Shown here: in pieces, positions 43,411-51,904 of the stretch
How the letters are laid out: every line of letters starts with the position of its first letter
How positions within the stretch are numbered: the stretch's first letter is position 1
Assembly (NCBI GenBank): GCA_041228345.1
Contig: CP166131.1
Location: 2,349,001 to 2,413,000 of the forward strand
DNA: 64,000 bases
Direction of reading: 5' to 3'
Source: Alphaproteobacteria bacterium LSUCC0396
GTDB taxonomy: Bacteria > Pseudomonadota > Alphaproteobacteria > Puniceispirillales > Puniceispirillaceae
Program-made: the position numbers and the translations under genes
Notes under the pieces: model-generated
Told to the model about the DNA's origin: nothing
Databases searched by the model: none
Seen by the model: the letters and a program-made list of their open reading frames with translations, nothing else

Positions 43411-44181
43411 TTAAAACAGGCCAACCACGATCAGGCGCGCGCCCATGATCAAGAATGCCCAGAGGACAATCCGGCGGAACGAATCCTGCTGCACATAGCC
43501 GCGCAACCATTCACCAACCCGGAATCCAGCCAACACCACAACCAACCCCATCAGCGAATGCAGCACCGTATCAAAATTCAGCACACCGGCAAATGTCAGG
43601 CCAGCGGCCAGCGGGATTGATCCGGCCAGAAACAAAAAGCCTGTCGCACCGATAAATTCGGCTTTTGAGACATTATGCGCCAGCAAATACATCGCAACCG
43701 GCGGTGACCAGATCGAGCTTAATCCGCCAAGTATGCCGGAAAAAAGCCCCACGCCGATATGCCATTTGCGGCCGTGACCAAGCGGAATTTTTGCGCCAAA
43801 CATCTGTGTAAGTGAAAACGCAATCATCGCAAAACCGATTGAAACGGTGAGGACTGCCTTTGGAAATGACATAATAAAAAGTGAGGTCAGGAAAATGCTC
43901 GCCATAATCGCGAGGCCAAAAAGCCAGTATTTCTCGGCAATTTCACGTCGGTTTTCACTGCGGGTATATTGCGCGATGTTGGTAAAGATAATCGGCAGGG
44001 TCAAAAGCGAAATGGCAATTGTCGGTTCCATTACGAGAGTGAGCAAGGCCATTGCCGCCGCTGGCAAACCGATGCCAAGAAAGCCTTTGACGATCCCCGA
44101 TAGAAAAAAAACTCCCAAGACAGCAAGCGTAATGCCGAAGTCTTGGGAGGGTAGGAGTGAGGTTGTAATAAACTCGTTCAA
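43411..44181 (-). CDS. TauE/SafE family anion exporter
   Basis: 256 residues with about eight membrane helices in two halves (GIVKGFLGIGLPAAAMALLT near residue 30; the second half begins near 135 with GVGLFSGILGGLSSIWSPPV). This is the TauE/SafE pattern, whose members export sulfite or sulfoacetate. It starts 11 bases after the TctA stop, so it belongs to the tct operon. In this setting sulfite release during C2-sulfonate breakdown is the favoured role, an inference from neighbours. Confidence 0.85.
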   Translation of the reverse strand: MNEFITTSLLPSQDFGITLAVLGVFFLSGIVKGFLGIGLPAAAMALLTLVMEPTIAISLLTLPIIFTNIAQYTRSENRREIAEKYWLFGLAIMASIFLTSLFIMSFPKAVLTVSIGFAMIAFSLTQMFGAKIPLGHGRKWHIGVGLFSGILGGLSSIWSPPVAMYLLAHNVSKAEFIGATGFLFLAGSIPLAAGLTFAGVLNFDTVLHSLMGLVVVLAGFRVGEWLRGYVQQDSFRRIVLWAFLIMGARLIVVGLF

Positions 44182-44192
44182 TGGTTTCTGTT

Positions 44193-45692
44193 TTAATCCT
44201 GCGATGCGCCGGCGCGGTTTGACGCCAGCGCCTTGTAAACACCAGTACCAAGCGTGATAGCACCAGCAATGATCAGGATTGTGCAGATCGGCCGTGAGAA
44301 ATAGGTGAACAGATCATAATGCACCATCTGCATGCCTTGAGCAAAGTTCTGCTCGCCAATTTTGCCAAGGATAATCCCCAAAACAATGCCCGGAATCGAA
44401 TAGCCTGACCGGCGTAACAAAAACCCTATGATGCCAGCACCAAACATGACGATGACGTCCAGTACCAAACCGCGTCCGATATATGAGCCAATGCTGGCAA
44501 GCAGCAGGATCATTGGGGCTAGGAAATGGAACGGGATTTTCAGCAAATACAGAATTGTTTTTGTTTCAATAAGGCCGATGAACAAGATCGACACATTGGC
44601 ATAGAACATCGCGGCGAAAACAACCCAGATCAAATCTGGTGAATTGTAAAAGACCAGCGGCCCTGGTTCCATGTCATGCATCTGGAACACCGCAACCATC
44701 ATCGCGGTCAAAGCGCCGCCGGGAAGGCCAAGTGCAAGAAGCGGGATCATTGCTGCACCAGTTGCCGCGTTATTGGCGGTTTCCGATGAAATTACGCCCT
44801 CAATATTACCCTTGCCGAAGGATTTTTTGTCCTTCGACCAGCGTACCGCTTCGCCATATCCCATGAAGGCTGCAAGAGTGGCGCCGATGCCAGGCAAAAT
44901 ACCACAGAAGAACCCAACAAAAATTGAACGGACTACAGCAATTTTATAACGCCATAGCTCTGCAATTGTTGGGAAATCAACGCTAAATTTTGGTGCAGTA
45001 TGTTTTCCAAAGGCGCGCCGCTCTGCTTGAACAAAGATTTCTGACACTGCAAAAAAGCCAAGTATCGCTGGAACAAAAGCAATTCCTGCAGCCAAATCAC
45101 TAAGGCCAAAATTGTAGCGGTTGATACCGCCTACTGGATCTTGACCAATTGTCGCAATCAAAAGCCCGAGAAGAACTGACATCCAGCCCTTCCAGATGGT
45201 GTTGCCACCAACTGAAGAGGCGACAGCAAGCCCAAAAAACACTAGAGCGAAGATCTCTGGTGGGCCAATATTTCTGATCGCCCATTGTGCAAGCGGCTCC
45301 GTCGCCGCCATCATTACCAACGCCGAGGCTGTGCCGCCAACAGCTGAGCATAGAACCGCCGCTCCAACGGCTTTACCGGCCATGCCTTTACGGGTCATGG
45401 GATACCCATCAAAAGCGGTAGGCGCGTTTTCAGGTGCGCCCGGGATATTGAACAAAATTGCCGTAATTGCGCCGCCATATGTACCGGTACAATAGATTAC
45501 TGCAAACAGCATCACTCCTTGAGAGGCTTCAAGGCCCGCGGTAAATGGCAACAGTATTGCCGCAAGCGTCAGCATGCTAACACCTGGTATAGCTCCAAAC
45601 AGCATGCCCCCCAAAACGCCAAACACAAAGATTGCTATCGTGAAAGGGTCGCCAAAAAGCGCAGCAGTACCAGCAAGAAAGTTTTCAATCAT
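44193..45692 (-). CDS. tctA: Tripartite tricarboxylate transporter, large permease TctA
   Basis: 499 residues with about 11-12 membrane helices. GAIPGVSMLTLAAILLPFT near residue 33 and GILPGIGATLAAFMGYG near 260 are the two conserved TctA signatures; GIPGAPENAPTAFDGYP-type sequence (NIPGAPENAPTAFDGYPM) is near 80. The system takes up carboxylates by sodium symport using a periplasmic binding protein. It is placed with tctB and tctC upstream and tauE downstream on the same strand. Confidence 0.94.
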   Translation of the reverse strand: MIENFLAGTAALFGDPFTIAIFVFGVLGGMLFGAIPGVSMLTLAAILLPFTAGLEASQGVMLFAVIYCTGTYGGAITAILFNIPGAPENAPTAFDGYPMTRKGMAGKAVGAAVLCSAVGGTASALVMMAATEPLAQWAIRNIGPPEIFALVFFGLAVASSVGGNTIWKGWMSVLLGLLIATIGQDPVGGINRYNFGLSDLAAGIAFVPAILGFFAVSEIFVQAERRAFGKHTAPKFSVDFPTIAELWRYKIAVVRSIFVGFFCGILPGIGATLAAFMGYGEAVRWSKDKKSFGKGNIEGVISSETANNAATGAAMIPLLALGLPGGALTAMMVAVFQMHDMEPGPLVFYNSPDLIWVVFAAMFYANVSILFIGLIETKTILYLLKIPFHFLAPMILLLASIGSYIGRGLVLDVIVMFGAGIIGFLLRRSGYSIPGIVLGIILGKIGEQNFAQGMQMVHYDLFTYFSRPICTILIIAGAITLGTGVYKALASNRAGASQD

Positions 45693-45708
45693 TTTATATG
45701 ACCTAGAT

Positions 45709-46266
45709 CTAGAACAAATGTTGCAGCTGATTATTCATGCGAAGCATCAGCGCGCTGAAATCATAGAATGGCGAGACTGTGCCTTGTGGTAGCGGAGCAT
45801 TTAGCACAACCATGAACAGTCCAATCAAAATGGAATATATCAAAGTCGTGATCCCTATAATCCATTTTATTCGGCGCTCACCAAGCAGCACAATAACGGC
45901 TGCGGCAAAAATAGGTGTGGCTGCGTAAAACCCCACAGGCTTGAGTGACCAAGCGTAAATTAGAGGTAGTAGCACGAAAGCCACAATATTTAGAATTGAT
46001 GAAAAAGATTTATGAACGCCACTGAGATCATCGTCAGTTACGCCAACTCGTCCATCTTGAGCACCTGAGCCATGGTTTCTTTGATGAAAAATATTACCAA
46101 TTACAACAAGGACAAGCATGAGGATTACCGCACGGGGCCATCCAGTAGCGCCAAATTTATAGATCTCGATACCTTGATTAAACTCAAATGAAAAAACAAA
46201 AAAGACTAACGCTATGGAAGTCCAAATAAAGGCCTCTATTATATTGTATTTTGATAATTTACCCAT
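45709..46266 (-). CDS. tctB: Tripartite tricarboxylate transporter, small permease TctB
   Basis: 185 residues, four membrane helices (near residues 12-28, 75-92, 98-125 and 130-160). It shows the usual low-conservation TctB layout, with EAFIWTSIALVFFVFSFEFN at the start and GATGWPRAVILMLVLVV in the middle. ATG 46266 follows GAGG at good spacing. 17 bases separate it from tctA. A perfect 12-bp stem-loop lies between it and tctC. Confidence 0.9.
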   Translation of the reverse strand: MGKLSKYNIIEAFIWTSIALVFFVFSFEFNQGIEIYKFGATGWPRAVILMLVLVVIGNIFHQRNHGSGAQDGRVGVTDDDLSGVHKSFSSILNIVAFVLLPLIYAWSLKPVGFYAATPIFAAAVIVLLGERRIKWIIGITTLIYSILIGLFMVVLNAPLPQGTVSPFYDFSALMLRMNNQLQHLF

Positions 46267-46280
46267 GTTTAAACCTCATA

Positions 46281-46310
46281 ATGCCCTGTGGTAATTAAAC
46301 CACAGGGCAT
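46281..46310 (-). promoter_or_regulatory. Perfect stem-loop between tctC and tctB
   Basis: Arms ATGCCCTGTGGT and ACCACAGGGCAT are perfectly complementary (12 bp) around the loop AATTAA. No T run follows on the minus strand, so it is not a simple terminator. Its place just after the binding-protein gene suggests an mRNA-stabilising or attenuating element that keeps tctC message more abundant than tctBA. Confidence 0.7.
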
Positions 46311-46336
46311 ACTTTAGATTGCGAAGGCAATTGATA

Positions 46337-47374
46337 TTATTTAACTGCCATTCCCATTTGCTTGTAGACTTCACGGTACTGATTTATTGACTGGTTAATC
46401 AGTTTTTTCGCACCTTCAGTGTCGCGATAGCTGTCGATAACAGTCATAAACTTTGACTCGTTATACTTCTGGTAGCTGTCCTGACAATAAGCACGTTGGA
46501 ATGCCCACTGGAGCCACTTTACTCGATCTGCTGGTGCCTTCGCATTGACGTAGAAACCGCGGAAACGCAGTAGCGGCTCAAAGTTCATACCCATCTCCAT
46601 GTGAGTCGGAACATCAGCAAATGCCTTCGGACGTTCATTAAAAATAGTCAAGATCGGCTTAAAGTTACCGGCATCAAGAAATTTTTTGACGTCCCCAGGC
46701 TGTTCGAATAGAGCGTCTACCTGACCACCAAGAAGTGCTCCGTAACGAGGGGCGCCCTTGTCAAAGGAAATTTGTTGAATTTCCATCCCTGAGGCATCAG
46801 TAATGAACTTCATTGTAACGCGTTCCATTGAACCTTCAGCAGAAACGTTTGCTATGGTTGCTTTGCCCCCTTGGGCCTTCACCCATGAAACAAATGATTT
46901 CCAATCTGTGAAACGGTCTTCATTTGTGCGGATATAGATTTGTGAGAAGGTGACTTGAGAAACCACGAGCGGAATAAGATCGACAGCTGGGTTCACCTTC
47001 GATGAGTCAAGCGCATGTGCTGATGAGGCATCATCAATATGCTCAAGAACATTGTAACCATCGGCAGGCATTGCCATGTAGGCTGTCGTGCCAACTGAGC
47101 CGGAACCGCCCGGCTTGTGATCTCGGTTGATGTCAACACTGGTAAGGTCAGTAACAGCCTTAGCCATTGCCGCTGCAACCTGGCCTGAACCCCCGCCTGG
47201 ACCGTAAGGTACGATCATTGTCAACGCACGATCAGGGAACCCGCCCGGTTTTGCCATTGAGTCTTCACTTACTTGACATTTAAAGCCGTGCCCACCAGCG
47301 ATTGCAACTGTCGAAGCGCCAGCTACCATACCGGCAAGCAGAGCGCTTTTGGCGATAGATTTTACGATTTTCAC
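46337..47374 (-). CDS. tctC: Tripartite tricarboxylate transporter binding protein TctC
   Basis: 345 residues from GTG 47374, which lies 6 bases after a strong GGAGG; the frame continues upstream to 47455 without a better site. A Sec signal peptide occupies about residues 1-26 (KIVKSIAKSALLAGMVAGAS, cut near AIA). Family motif ALTMIVPYGPGGGSGQVAAA near residue 48, then NRDHKPGGSGSVGTTAYM near 82 and VDALFEQPGDVKKFLDAG near 205. It captures the carboxylate or sulfonate in the periplasm for TctAB. Ligand unknown; sulfoacetate is inferred from the downstream SauT/SauS-like genes. Confidence 0.92.
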   Translation of the reverse strand: MKIVKSIAKSALLAGMVAGASTVAIAGGHGFKCQVSEDSMAKPGGFPDRALTMIVPYGPGGGSGQVAAAMAKAVTDLTSVDINRDHKPGGSGSVGTTAYMAMPADGYNVLEHIDDASSAHALDSSKVNPAVDLIPLVVSQVTFSQIYIRTNEDRFTDWKSFVSWVKAQGGKATIANVSAEGSMERVTMKFITDASGMEIQQISFDKGAPRYGALLGGQVDALFEQPGDVKKFLDAGNFKPILTIFNERPKAFADVPTHMEMGMNFEPLLRFRGFYVNAKAPADRVKWLQWAFQRAYCQDSYQKYNESKFMTVIDSYRDTEGAKKLINQSINQYREVYKQMGMAVK

Positions 47375-47538
47375 AATTTCCTCCGAATTTGATTTTTGTG
47401 AGGGATAGTGTGGCCTATTGCGATACAAAAGCAAAGCATTCTCGGTAATAATCACAAAAATTTTCTAAATATTCCAAATTTTGAACAATTTGCGGAGGTG
47501 GGAGCGGCTTTCCTTCTTTTCACCCAAAAAGATCGCGC

Positions 47539-47562
47539 AAAAAACTATGAAAAACCATAGTT
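47539..47562 (-). terminator. Weak candidate terminator after the AMP-ligase gene
   Basis: On the minus strand AACTATG pairs with CATAGTT around a six-base loop and is followed by four T residues, 54 bases past the ligase stop. The stem is only 7 bp. Confidence 0.4.
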
Positions 47563-47616
47563 ATAGAAACGCAATCATCAAAAATAGGTCAAAAAAGATA
47601 GGGGATATCAGTGGAG

Positions 47617-49185
47617 TCAGGCGACTGGCAGTTCGGCAACCAGATCAAGCAGCTTCATGCGTTGCACCTTGCCAGACGGGCCTTTTGGTAGGTCATCCAG
47701 AAAATGGATGTGATCCGGTGTCTTATAGGCGCCGATCCGGCTTTTGCAGAACTCACGAAGCGCGTCTTCAGAGATGAGTTTGCCGTCCTTCAGCCGCACG
47801 CAGGCCTCGACCCGTTGGCCGTAATCCTTGCATTCACGGGCAAAAGCGGCGGCTTCTAAAACCGCGTCATGCTCCAGCAATGCCTCATCAATTTCACGCG
47901 GTGCAATATTTTCCCCGCCTTTGATGATCAGTTCTTTGATACGGCCAGTAACAAAGATAAACCCATCCTCGTCCATGCGCCCCAAATCGCCAGTGCGCAG
48001 CCATCCATCCGGTGTGATGGTTTTGGAGGTTTCCTCTGGCCGGTCGAGATAGCCTTGCATGACATTTCTGCCACGAACCAGAATTTCCCCCTCAATATTA
48101 GGCCCGAGCAGGTTCAATTCTGCATCAGCGATCGCGATTTCGTTGCCATAGCCAATGCCGGGTGACCCGATCTTGCGTTCGGCAGGAGGCAGAGGATTTG
48201 ACAGAATTTGTGCGCCAGTTTCAGTGAGGCCCATGGTCTCAATGATCGGAATATTGAACCGCTTTTCGAATTGACGGTGAATTTCTGGCGGCAGAGGCGC
48301 GGATGCTGACCGCGAAAAGCGCAGCCGTTCTCGGTTGAGCTCGGGCACTGTTTCGTCATTCAGCAAATAGGCAAATAGCGTCGGCACAGCGCTGAACCAG
48401 CTACAGTCAAAACGCTTCATCTGACCCCAAAAATGTGTGGCCGAGAACCGCCGCGGCATTACCAGCCCGCTGGCCGATACCAATGTGCCCATAACGGTTA
48501 CACAAAGGCCATTAATATGATAGATCGGCAACACGCACATTCCTGTGTCACCTGGGCTTAGTTTGTGTGCGATACAGACATTAATGCCCGCCGCAATCAG
48601 GTTTGCGTGCGACAGCAATACACCTTTGGGAACACCGGTTGTGCCGGACGTATACATCAAAAGGCCGATTGTATCAGCAGTTGGACGGCGCAATTCCTGT
48701 GGTTTTGCCGGCGTGATGCCAGTTTCGTCCCAGCGCGGCCCGTCATCAAGATCCATGCTGACGATCTTTGGCATGGTGTGCGGTGCGTCGGGCATTGCGG
48801 CCAATGCGTCTTCGACCATTTGACGCGACTCGTCAGCACATAAAATGATCTCGGTTTTGGAATGCGACAGGACAAACCCAAGTGTTTTTACCCCCGCCAC
48901 CAGATTCAACGGGGTTGCACGATAACCGGCAAACACGGTGCCAAGAAAGGCAAAGCTGGCGGCCGCACCATTGGCTGATGCGATCGCAACCGACGCACCA
49001 TCCGACAGTCCAGCCCCCTGCAGGTAGCAGGCTATTTTGGTCGCACGATCACGGCTTTCCTGCCAGCTGAACCCCTTGCCGGTTTCAGGTGTTGTCAGCC
49101 AAATAGCAGCAGGTGTCGCGGTAGCGGCGTTGATAAGCAGGTCAGCAATATTGGATGATTTCGCGCCATAAATAGGATCGGACAT
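47617..49185 (-). CDS. AMP-forming acyl-CoA ligase, SauT-like
   Basis: 522 residues. ANL superfamily motifs: LLMYTSGTTGVPKGVLLSHA near residue 170, ETMGLTETGAQI near 315, GWLRTGDLGRMDEDGF near 395 and the catalytic lysine in LPKGPSGKVQRMKL near the end. It forms an acyl-adenylate and then a CoA ester. It starts 3 bases after the SauS-like dehydrogenase, so the two act together; in Cupriavidus the same pair (SauT, SauS) activates and reduces sulfoacetate. The substrate assignment is therefore contextual; a short or medium chain acid is possible. Confidence 0.8.
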   Translation of the reverse strand: MSDPIYGAKSSNIADLLINAATATPAAIWLTTPETGKGFSWQESRDRATKIACYLQGAGLSDGASVAIASANGAAASFAFLGTVFAGYRATPLNLVAGVKTLGFVLSHSKTEIILCADESRQMVEDALAAMPDAPHTMPKIVSMDLDDGPRWDETGITPAKPQELRRPTADTIGLLMYTSGTTGVPKGVLLSHANLIAAGINVCIAHKLSPGDTGMCVLPIYHINGLCVTVMGTLVSASGLVMPRRFSATHFWGQMKRFDCSWFSAVPTLFAYLLNDETVPELNRERLRFSRSASAPLPPEIHRQFEKRFNIPIIETMGLTETGAQILSNPLPPAERKIGSPGIGYGNEIAIADAELNLLGPNIEGEILVRGRNVMQGYLDRPEETSKTITPDGWLRTGDLGRMDEDGFIFVTGRIKELIIKGGENIAPREIDEALLEHDAVLEAAAFARECKDYGQRVEACVRLKDGKLISEDALREFCKSRIGAYKTPDHIHFLDDLPKGPSGKVQRMKLLDLVAELPVA

Positions 49186-49188
49186 GAT

Positions 49189-50601
49189 TTACGCACCAGT
49201 TTGGTTGCTGGCCTTAAAATAGGCGCCAAGCATTTCATCAACAGTGGGTTCAACCGGGGCAATTGGCCGTGCGATTCGCACATGATTGACGAAATGCGTC
49301 CAATTCAAATTGTCGTCGATCGAATTGCCGCCCCACGAACCACAGCCCATAGACAACGAAAATGGTAGTCCATTATCAAATGATCCGCCGGTCGCAAAAC
49401 AATGCGCCTGATTGACAATAATCCGGCAGGCTTCCATATCCATCGCCAGTTCACGCGCTCGCGCATCATCACGGCTATGCAGCCCCAACGAATGGCCGCG
49501 TCCCTGATAGGCGTGAAGCTCGCGTGCCATTTCCTTGGCGGTGGCAAAATCTGCGGCGCGGTAAAGCGCAAAGAACAGAGCCATTTTTTCGCCAGAGATT
49601 GGCGCGTCAGGGCCAATGCCGGTTGCAGGAGCAACAAGGAATTTTGTACCTTCGGGCGCGGTCTCGGCAAAGCCAAGCGTGTCCAGAACGGCGTCGATGT
49701 CCTTTGCCAGCATATTCCGGTTTAAATGCCCATCATGCCAATGTGTGTTAATTAGATGGGCTGTTTGATCAGCGTCAAGACACATGCCGCCAGCCCGCGC
49801 AATCGCCCGCAAAAACGCATCATAAACTGCATCGACAACAATCACGGCATTTTCTGATGAGCATGAAGTCGCGTTATCAAAACATTTTGAACGGGCGATT
49901 TTACCAGCTGCATCATCGAGATCAGCGGTTTCATCAATGATTGTCACGACATTGCCCATGCCGACGCCAAGTGCCGGTGTTCCTGATGAATAGGCTGAAC
50001 GCACGTTACTTTGCGAGCCGGTTACCACCAGCATATCCACGCCCTGCATAAGCCGCGCGGTTTTCTCTTTCGATGGCGGATTCGGCACCATTTGTACAAG
50101 ATCATGATCAAGGCCAATTCGATCAAACTCCGCATAAACATATTCCAGAAGCTTTGCCAGCGGTGCAGCGCCTTTTGGTGAAGGTGCCAGAATGATTGCA
50201 TTGCCGGTTTTCAGCGCGTTGACAACGTTGTTGATTGGTGTTGCCAGCGGGTTGGTTGAAGGAACAACTGCAGCAATAACGCCTTTTGGCCGCAGATATT
50301 CGCTAACGCCTGATTGTGCGTCATCATCAATCAGGCCAAAGCTAGTCTTACCATGAATATCCCGCAGCAGACCAAGCGTTTTCCTGTGGTTTTTAGTAAT
50401 CTTATCGGCGATTTTACCAAGGCCAGTTTCAGCCACAGCAAATGCCGCAAGTTCAGCGTTACGGCTGGGTTCCATTAAGGCCCATGCAGCGGCTTCGGCG
50501 GCGCGGTCAAACCGTTCCTGAGTGCCGTTCGCCTCATAAGCCTTTTGGGCAGCACGCGCCCGCGCAATTATGGCATCAATCTCGGCCGCTACTTCACTCA
50601 T
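49189..50601 (-). CDS. CoA-acylating aldehyde dehydrogenase, SauS-like (sulfoacetaldehyde dehydrogenase)
   Basis: 470 residues from ATG 50601 (a GTG lies one codon earlier), preceded by GGGAG. EutE/AdhE-type acylating dehydrogenase: YLRPKGVIAAVVPSTNPLAT near residue 105, VVTGSQSNVRSAYSSGTPAL near 195 and the catalytic Cys in CFDNATSCSSENAVIV near 250. SauS of the sulfoacetate pathway belongs here: it interconverts sulfoacetyl-CoA and sulfoacetaldehyde with NADP(H). Neighbouring SauT-like ligase, TctABC importer and TauE exporter support this over a simple acetaldehyde role. Xsc is not in the window. Confidence 0.78.
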   Translation of the reverse strand: MSEVAAEIDAIIARARAAQKAYEANGTQERFDRAAEAAAWALMEPSRNAELAAFAVAETGLGKIADKITKNHRKTLGLLRDIHGKTSFGLIDDDAQSGVSEYLRPKGVIAAVVPSTNPLATPINNVVNALKTGNAIILAPSPKGAAPLAKLLEYVYAEFDRIGLDHDLVQMVPNPPSKEKTARLMQGVDMLVVTGSQSNVRSAYSSGTPALGVGMGNVVTIIDETADLDDAAGKIARSKCFDNATSCSSENAVIVVDAVYDAFLRAIARAGGMCLDADQTAHLINTHWHDGHLNRNMLAKDIDAVLDTLGFAETAPEGTKFLVAPATGIGPDAPISGEKMALFFALYRAADFATAKEMARELHAYQGRGHSLGLHSRDDARARELAMDMEACRIIVNQAHCFATGGSFDNGLPFSLSMGCGSWGGNSIDDNLNWTHFVNHVRIARPIAPVEPTVDEMLGAYFKASNQTGA

Positions 50602-50726
50602 CACTTTGCTCCCGATAATAAACTGCCAGCACTTAGCCTACGGAAAAATTAATTGTCAATTACTACCCCGGATTTTTTGCCGAAATTTTCAAACTTGACC
50701 CGGCAAATATTCGTCAGATCGGGCAA

Positions 50727-51119
50727 TCAGTCAGCTTTCGTTATGGGCAATGACTGGCCTTGCCACGCGGTAAAGCCTCCCTCCATATCGCGGATATTGG
50801 TAAACCCCATATCTCGCAGGGTTTTGGCAGCCAAGGCCGAGCGCCAGCTGCTGGCGCAAAATAAAATCAATTCGCCGTCTGTTGCAAATATATCTTTGTG
50901 ATAGGGGCTGTCAGGGTCGGCCCAAAATTCCAGCATCCCGCGCGGGGCATGGAATGCGCCATCAATGCGGCCGTCACGTTGAAGTTCGCGGATATCACGA
51001 ATATCAATCAAAACAGCCGCGCCCGATTTTTGGCGTTCGTAAGCGTCATCGACGCTGATGCTATTGATTTCGCTTTTGGCCTCGGCGACCAGCATTTTCA
51101 CAGTTTTCGTTATGGGCAT
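50727..51119 (-). CDS. Single-domain rhodanese-like protein
   Basis: 130 residues. One rhodanese domain with VLIDIRDIRELQRDGRIDGA near residue 35 and the active-site loop LFCASSWRSALAAKTL near 88, with the catalytic cysteine in FCASSWRS. ATG 51119 has AGGATG upstream. Such proteins move sulfane sulfur to acceptors such as cyanide or thiols. It lies 125 bases upstream of the SauS-like gene on the same strand; a sulfur-handling connection is possible but unproven. Confidence 0.87.
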   Translation of the reverse strand: MPITKTVKMLVAEAKSEINSISVDDAYERQKSGAAVLIDIRDIRELQRDGRIDGAFHAPRGMLEFWADPDSPYHKDIFATDGELILFCASSWRSALAAKTLRDMGFTNIRDMEGGFTAWQGQSLPITKAD

Positions 51120-51253: not shown

Positions 51254-51904
51254 TCAAACGGACGGCGGATAATTTCGTCCAGCCCTTTGCCAATCGGCCA
51301 GAACGAGTTCTGGTTTTATCAAGGCCTTCAAATCGCGGCGAACGCCAATCCAGCGCAGGTGAATTGAATTGCGCACAATTTCCTCATCATCATTTTTTAA
51401 CTCATCGGCAATCGGTGCCCAACGAAACACTGCATCCGAGCTTGACTGGAAAGCGGCCGCCCCATCGGCAATAAGGTCCCAATCGGCAAAGGCGGCTCGC
51501 TGTTTGCCCTTGTCACCCATTGCTGCAAACAGGTTTGGATCGATATCGTCCTGTTGGTAATCAAGCAAAATACCATCCAGCATTTCAGCGACTAATTCGC
51601 TTGCCTTTTGATTTTTTAACCCGCCACCGCGTTTTAGCTGTGCAACGGCAAAAAGGCTAAGATCACAGATAGCAGCACCGTAAATATGCCAGCGCGCGAT
51701 GCGCAGAGATGTCAAGAAATCGGTATTTTGGAATAGCTTTGGGTACTGTGTACCGGCGCGCGCTTTTACATAGGTGTAGAGCGTAACCTGCGAGACATAG
51801 GCAGCTCTGGTGTCAATGAAATCAATAAGTTGTTGGCGTGTCTCAACTGGTGGGTCGCTCAAGAGTCCGATTGTGCGCAGCATTGATTTTAGAATTGATA
51901 TCAT
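51254..51904 (-). CDS. Hypothetical protein, alphaproteobacterial type
   Basis: 216 residues, mostly helical and soluble, with no signal peptide or membrane helix and no motif I recognise. ETRQQLIDFIDTRAAYVSQV at the N-terminus and RNSIHLRWIGVRRDLKALI near the C-terminus look conserved in style. The coding quality (codon use, base composition) equals the neighbouring housekeeping genes, so it is probably real. No partner genes indicate a role. Confidence 0.72.
   Translation of the reverse strand: MISILKSMLRTIGLLSDPPVETRQQLIDFIDTRAAYVSQVTLYTYVKARAGTQYPKLFQNTDFLTSLRIARWHIYGAAICDLSLFAVAQLKRGGGLKNQKASELVAEMLDGILLDYQQDDIDPNLFAAMGDKGKQRAAFADWDLIADGAAAFQSSSDAVFRWAPIADELKNDDEEIVRNSIHLRWIGVRRDLKALIKPELVLADWQRAGRNYPPSV

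Follow-up and report, generated by a model that had tools for sequence, protein, structure and literature searches.

The window analyzed here, a 64,000-nucleotide stretch of contig CP166131.1 from Alphaproteobacteria bacterium LSUCC0396 (Puniceispirillaceae, SAR116 order), carries on its minus strand six genes which together probably serve the uptake and activation of sulfoacetate. In the order of transcription these are sauS, sauT, tctC, tctB, tctA and a gene of the TauE/SafE family (here tauE); they span 43411-50604, and all positions of the cluster are those of the whole window (Table 1). The products exceed the Pfam gathering scores of Aldedh, AMP-binding, TctC, TctB, TctA and TauE, and the three subunits of a tripartite tricarboxylate transporter (TTT), TctABC, are all present and adjacent on a single strand. 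The likely start of tctC is the GTG at 47374 behind a GGAGG motif, which gives a product of ~345 amino acids (aa), as in its relatives.

Table 1. Genes and hairpin of the predicted sulfoacetate cluster.
Feature	Position	Strand	Assignment	Remark
sauS	49189..50604	-	predicted acylating (CoA-dependent) sulfoacetaldehyde dehydrogenase, sulfoacetyl-CoA to sulfoacetaldehyde	GTG start; ATG at 50601
sauT	47617..49185	-	AMP-forming acyl-CoA ligase, predicted sulfoacetate-CoA ligase	Pfam AMP-binding 236 bits, AMP-binding_C 63 bits
tctC	46337..47455	-	periplasmic substrate-binding protein, tripartite tricarboxylate transporter	Pfam PF03401 57.7 bits
hairpin tctC/tctB	46281..46310	-		stem 12 bp, loop 6 bases
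tctB	45709..46266	-	small membrane subunit	Pfam PF07331 47.7 bits
tctA	44193..45692	-	large membrane subunit (permease)	Pfam PF01970 427.9 bits
tauE	43411..44181	-	TauE/SafE family exporter, predicted sulfite exporter	Pfam PF01925 79.4 bits

A first-pass annotation of this DNA had read the locus as a cluster for sulfoacetate utilization. That reading is supported by a dehydrogenase that passes the curated SauS equivalog, by xsc and by Pta-like and SoeABC-like genes elsewhere in the genome, and by the conservation of the unit in SAR116 bacteria. Open reading frame coordinates also reproduce the spacings it gave: sauS and sauT are 3 bases apart, tauE follows tctA after 11 bases, and 0.24 kb (242 bases) separates sauT from the likely start of tctC.

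By the standard of the curated equivalog NF047625 (NCBIfam), the dehydrogenase is SauS: it is predicted as such with 654.2 bits (cut-off, 600) over residues 6 to 465 of 471, and the genome has no second gene with a score close to this. The possibility raised by the first-pass annotation, that the enzyme might group with propanediol or ethanolamine dehydrogenases, can be rejected, as its scores lie far under those of the corresponding models (AdhE type, 333 bits, cut-off 951; EutE type, 270 bits, cut-off 620; CoA-acylating aldehyde dehydrogenase, 193 bits, cut-off 403). The conserved motif DNATSCSSE, with the catalytic cysteine Cys248, is identical in the SauS proteins of Caballeronia, Paracoccus, Sulfitobacter, Ruegeria and genome G064, and differs by one change in Azospirillum. 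For reference, SauS from a locus on the Caballeronia plasmid pNK83 (L130), whose layout IclR-sauS-sauT-MFS we take to match that of the Cupriavidus sauRSTU operon, reaches 800 bits on the same model and is 51% identical to the SauS of the window.

SauT, the AMP-binding ligase encoded directly beside sauS, is 42.7 to 60.7% identical to SauT at other sauS loci, the lower value being that to the sauRSTU-type protein of the Caballeronia plasmid. We infer sulfoacetate as its probable substrate from this identity and from the linkage to sauS.

Where would the product of these two enzymes go? The genome of LSUCC0396 consists of one contig of 2.59 Mb rated 100% complete, and it contains a full-length xsc (G000:C1:1774237-1775967; 940.5 bits with a cut-off of 676, and 1043 bits on a second Xsc model with a cut-off of 620). 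This gene, whose absence the first-pass annotation had named as fatal to its proposal, lies apart from the cluster. At locus L009 (8193-16614), the neighbors of xsc are not pta or tauABC; it is divergent from the genes of an ABC transporter of the branched-chain/urea type and of a TauD-like dioxygenase. The genome has two genes with a Pta domain, one for a malic enzyme-Pta fusion and one for a 348-aa Pta/Ptb-type protein (G000:C1:1011348-1012394) which is 44% identical to that of an Azospirillum sau cluster; acetate kinase was not found in the genome. The search for Xsc and Pta that the first-pass annotation had suggested was thus successful for Xsc, with scores above the cut-offs, and for Pta yielded only the fusion and the 348-aa protein. 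Directly downstream of the gene for the latter, on the same strand, follow genes for a 961-aa molybdopterin oxidoreductase, a 4Fe-4S subunit and a membrane protein, which is the soeABC order; the SoeA-like and SoeB-like proteins share 62% and 65% identity with their counterparts in the Azospirillum plasmid cluster. Beside pta-soeABC (L126, G000:C1:1004000-1019000) there are also genes for a MocR-type regulator, an omega-aminotransferase passing the AptA model and a 642-aa TauC-like fused permease, and this island is likely to be for taurine dissimilation, feeding the same Xsc.

Hence, candidate genes can be named for every step of a route that starts with sulfoacetate and ends in acetyl-CoA and sulfate, those for the Pta and Soe steps being assigned by homology below or without curated cut-offs. 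We propose that TctC would bind sulfoacetate in the periplasm and pass it to the TctAB permease. In the cell, SauT would use ATP to convert it to sulfoacetyl-CoA, which SauS would reduce to sulfoacetaldehyde at the expense of NAD(P)H. Xsc would then cleave sulfoacetaldehyde with phosphate to acetyl phosphate and sulfite, the Pta-like enzyme would form acetyl-CoA from acetyl phosphate, and the SoeABC-like, quinone-linked dehydrogenase would oxidize sulfite to sulfate. The TauE-type exporter could provide an outlet for surplus sulfite (or sulfate). We observe the genes, the families of their products, their linkage and conservation, and the presence of xsc; for this scheme we infer all substrates, the coupling, and the direction of transport.

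The gene combination is conserved. We surveyed 136 genomes of the order. SauS scored over the cut-off in 31 of them and Xsc in 46; the neighborhoods of these, and of 40 named loci besides, were read. Orthologues of the TctA of the window were present in 29 (85 to 100% identical, with one at 63%). Nearly all genomes with this TctA (28/29) also have sauS or a fragment of it, the fragments lying beside tctA in G077 and G108; in the sole exception (G079), tctA is on a 3.8-kb contig that begins before sauST could be seen. SAR116-type loci hold sauST, TctABC and TauE together wherever the contig reaches, with TauE following sauT or tctA. The order is SauS-SauT-TctC-TctB-TctA-TauE in the genus of the window and TctC-TctB-TctA-SauS-SauT-TauE in other genera, so that the parts have stayed together through rearrangement. 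SauS of the window's genus is 61% identical to that of other SAR116 bacteria, about equal to its identity with Paracoccus, whereas TctA is 87% identical. A foreign replacement of sauST in this genus is nevertheless rejected by the SauS tree, in which all SAR116-type sequences form one group with a support of 100/100. Across the survey, xsc is commoner in genomes with sauS (20/31) than in those without (28/105; Fisher p = 0.0002, uncorrected for kinship), and outside the order, in Paracoccus and Rhodococcus, no more than a few kilobases separate sauS from xsc.

Several observations weigh against a sulfoacetate pathway of this kind, and the first two of them are its weakest points. When only near-complete genomes are counted, xsc accompanies sauS in 13 of 16 genomes versus 15 of 27 without sauS (p = 0.11), a comparison blurred by the fact that xsc also serves taurine. 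No xsc was detected in three near-complete genomes with sauS, G073, G093 (where sauS is cut by a contig end) and G123, which could be due to an assembly gap or to another fate of sulfoacetaldehyde. The 348-aa Pta-like protein stays under the cut-offs of all Pta models (best, 245 bits versus 282) and is closest to the PRK08190/PRK11890 type. For SauT, the NCBIfam scan brought up no SauT-specific model. Finally, relatives of TauE outside the cluster occur in mixed contexts, for example near choline-sulfatase, and hence the cargo of TauE is not certain.

The last point matters for a first alternative, according to which the exported cargo of the TauE/SafE protein is sulfoacetate or sulfate, not sulfite, and the cluster serves exchange or overflow besides catabolism. 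SafE, a member of this family, is a proposed sulfoacetate exporter. In two genomes of another family, relatives 55 to 56% identical to the TauE of the window are encoded beside choline-sulfatase and a TAXI-type TRAP transporter (L139, 2325-7128; L140, 6379-11759), which suggests export of sulfate or sulfite during the use of sulfate esters. However, LSUCC0396 has a complete candidate route downstream of sulfoacetaldehyde, and AMP-forming ligases consume ATP, which speaks for net uptake and use of the substrate. We therefore consider this alternative unlikely, if the least so of those weighed here.

It is slightly less likely still that the ligase and the acylating dehydrogenase act on a different small acid, for example oxalate or malonate, taking it via the acyl-CoA to the semialdehyde, and that the TTT imports that acid. 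The nearest solved structures to SauT are oxalate-CoA ligases (287 bits), and those nearest to TctC include BugD and terephthalate-binding proteins (57 to 74 bits), which are carboxylate binders. Yet, the sauRSTU-type SauT scores much alike (273 bits) against the identical nearest solved structure, so the likeness to oxalate-CoA ligases is not discriminating. In addition, SauS passes its equivalog, TauE belongs to the SAR116 clusters, and xsc, pta or soeABC are found nearby in relatives, all of which speaks for sulfoacetate.

Least likely among these alternatives is that the enzymes degrade sulfoacetate while TTT and TauE form a separate transcription unit with another role and are neighbors by chance, as the 0.24-kb gap between sauT and tctC might suggest, because a scan of the coding strand brought up no terminator-like site in this gap, the TctA orthologues are almost always accompanied by sauS, and the remaining SAR116 genera have TTT genes that lead straight into sauS and a TauE gene straight after sauT, with short gaps on one strand. 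Considering these alternatives, the cluster very probably imports sulfoacetate through the three-part transporter and yields an intermediate usable by the rest of the genome.

The weak terminator that the first-pass annotation had placed in the sauT-tctC gap was not found by our promoter/terminator scan of the minus strand, and across the region promoter and terminator matches did not exceed their number in shuffled sequence. Co-transcription across the gap is presumed, as is any regulation of the cluster. The strongest hairpin of the whole unit sits elsewhere, at the tctC-tctB junction. A strong hairpin is found at this position in 10 of 10 SAR116 loci examined, with quite different sequences and the structure kept, and it may raise the level of the binding protein above that of the membrane subunits. 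We found no regulator gene beside the cluster. The upstream neighbors of sauS on the same strand encode a rhodanese (50727-51119) and a 216-aa protein without a Pfam or NCBIfam match (51254-51904); they are retained in only part of the genus and, being absent upstream of sauS in loci L051 and L062 of the same genus, were rejected as members of the cluster.

TTT-linked sauS genes are also found in other marine Alphaproteobacteria, in Granulosicoccaceae, in Azospirillum and in one haloarchaeon. In roseobacters, Granulosicoccaceae and Anderseniella, the cluster mostly consists of a divergent LacI-type regulator gene followed by TctA-TctB-TctC-SauS-SauT, without TauE beside it, and the TctA of this type (Ruegeria) is only ~34% identical to that of the window. 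Two genomes of the SAR116 order, G128 (L060) and G135 (L059), carry this type in place of the SAR116 type and group with Anderseniella in trees, which suggests that they gained their clusters by horizontal transfer. On a Haloterrigena plasmid (L134, 2931-8559), a haloarchaeal SauS (676 bits) is encoded together with TctCBA; the ligase gene is replaced there by one for a CoA-transferase, possibly a third way of sulfoacetate activation.

The sau-linked TctA proteins fall into separate groups with TctA paralogues of the LSUCC0396 genome between them, and none of 200 bootstrap trees unites them. A single sau-linked group was, however, not rejected by the AU test (p = 0.27), and hence repeated recruitment is plausible but unproven. 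Our tentative view, held with somewhat less than even confidence, is that TTTs were recruited for sulfoacetate more than once: in SAR116, in the Roseobacter/Granulosicoccus/Anderseniella lineage, in a Sulfitobacter-Azospirillum lineage, and perhaps in haloarchaea. If true, sulfonate uptake would be a recurrent and little recognized role of the TTT family. The substrates of this family are mostly uncharted, and our analysis provides a probable substrate for one of the eleven TctA systems encoded in the LSUCC0396 genome.

SAR116 bacteria are an abundant group in the ocean, and in part of the clade the sau-xsc route is likely to be a further source of sulfite, carbon and energy. A clade-wide study of SAR116 (PMC12262181) explained soeABC by sulfite released through ssuD/msmA and discussed sulfonates; its main text mentions neither sulfoacetate nor taurine.

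How does the cluster compare with known sulfoacetate systems? The sauRSTU type, represented here by the Caballeronia plasmid locus, shares the adjacent enzyme pair; the window differs from it in having TctABC instead of the MFS transporter SauU, no neighboring regulator gene (sauR), and TauE in the unit. The Azospirillum sp. TSH58 plasmid cluster (L132) combines pta, TctCBA, sauS, a sauCD-like pair and soeABC. It resembles our system in having TctCBA beside sauS and the same type of pta and soeABC genes, and differs in its sauCD-like ligase pair and in a TctA that is only 34% identical. The sauRSTU operon itself comes from Cupriavidus necator H16 (Weinitschke et al., 2010, as cited in PMC12625764). 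As far as the same account describes it, Bilophila wadsworthia sauSCD (Liu et al., 2023) likewise has a TTT, the putative sulfoacetate transporter SauXYZ, together with SauS, but its route passes through isethionate and its ligase, SauCD, is an ADP-forming enzyme of two subunits, whereas the window would encode the AMP-forming SauT and lead into the Xsc route.

The closest counterparts were reported in October 2025 in mSystems (PMC12625764) in dominant Arctic sponge symbionts, whose "hybrid" sauST clusters have a TTT for SauU and were likened to SauXYZ of Bilophila. That work also found sau clusters in free-living bins, four of which belong to Puniceispirillales or Rhodobacterales. The first-pass annotation was hence correct that TctABC takes the place of SauU, as no MFS SauU was found beside sauST, but the route is not new; the central idea of sauST with a TTT is already published, and the gene combination had been described in related marine bacteria in 2025. 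Compared by description and not by sequence, the symbiont clusters are like ours in joining SauS, SauT and a TTT that replaces SauU, with xsc and pta elsewhere in the genome, and they differ in that our genome is closed and belongs to the SAR116 order, TauE is part of the unit, and a pta-soeABC operon lies elsewhere. To the published systems our analysis adds the order-wide distribution, the TauE partner, a single closed genome with candidate genes for the full pathway, and the linkage of sauS to several divergent TTT lineages.

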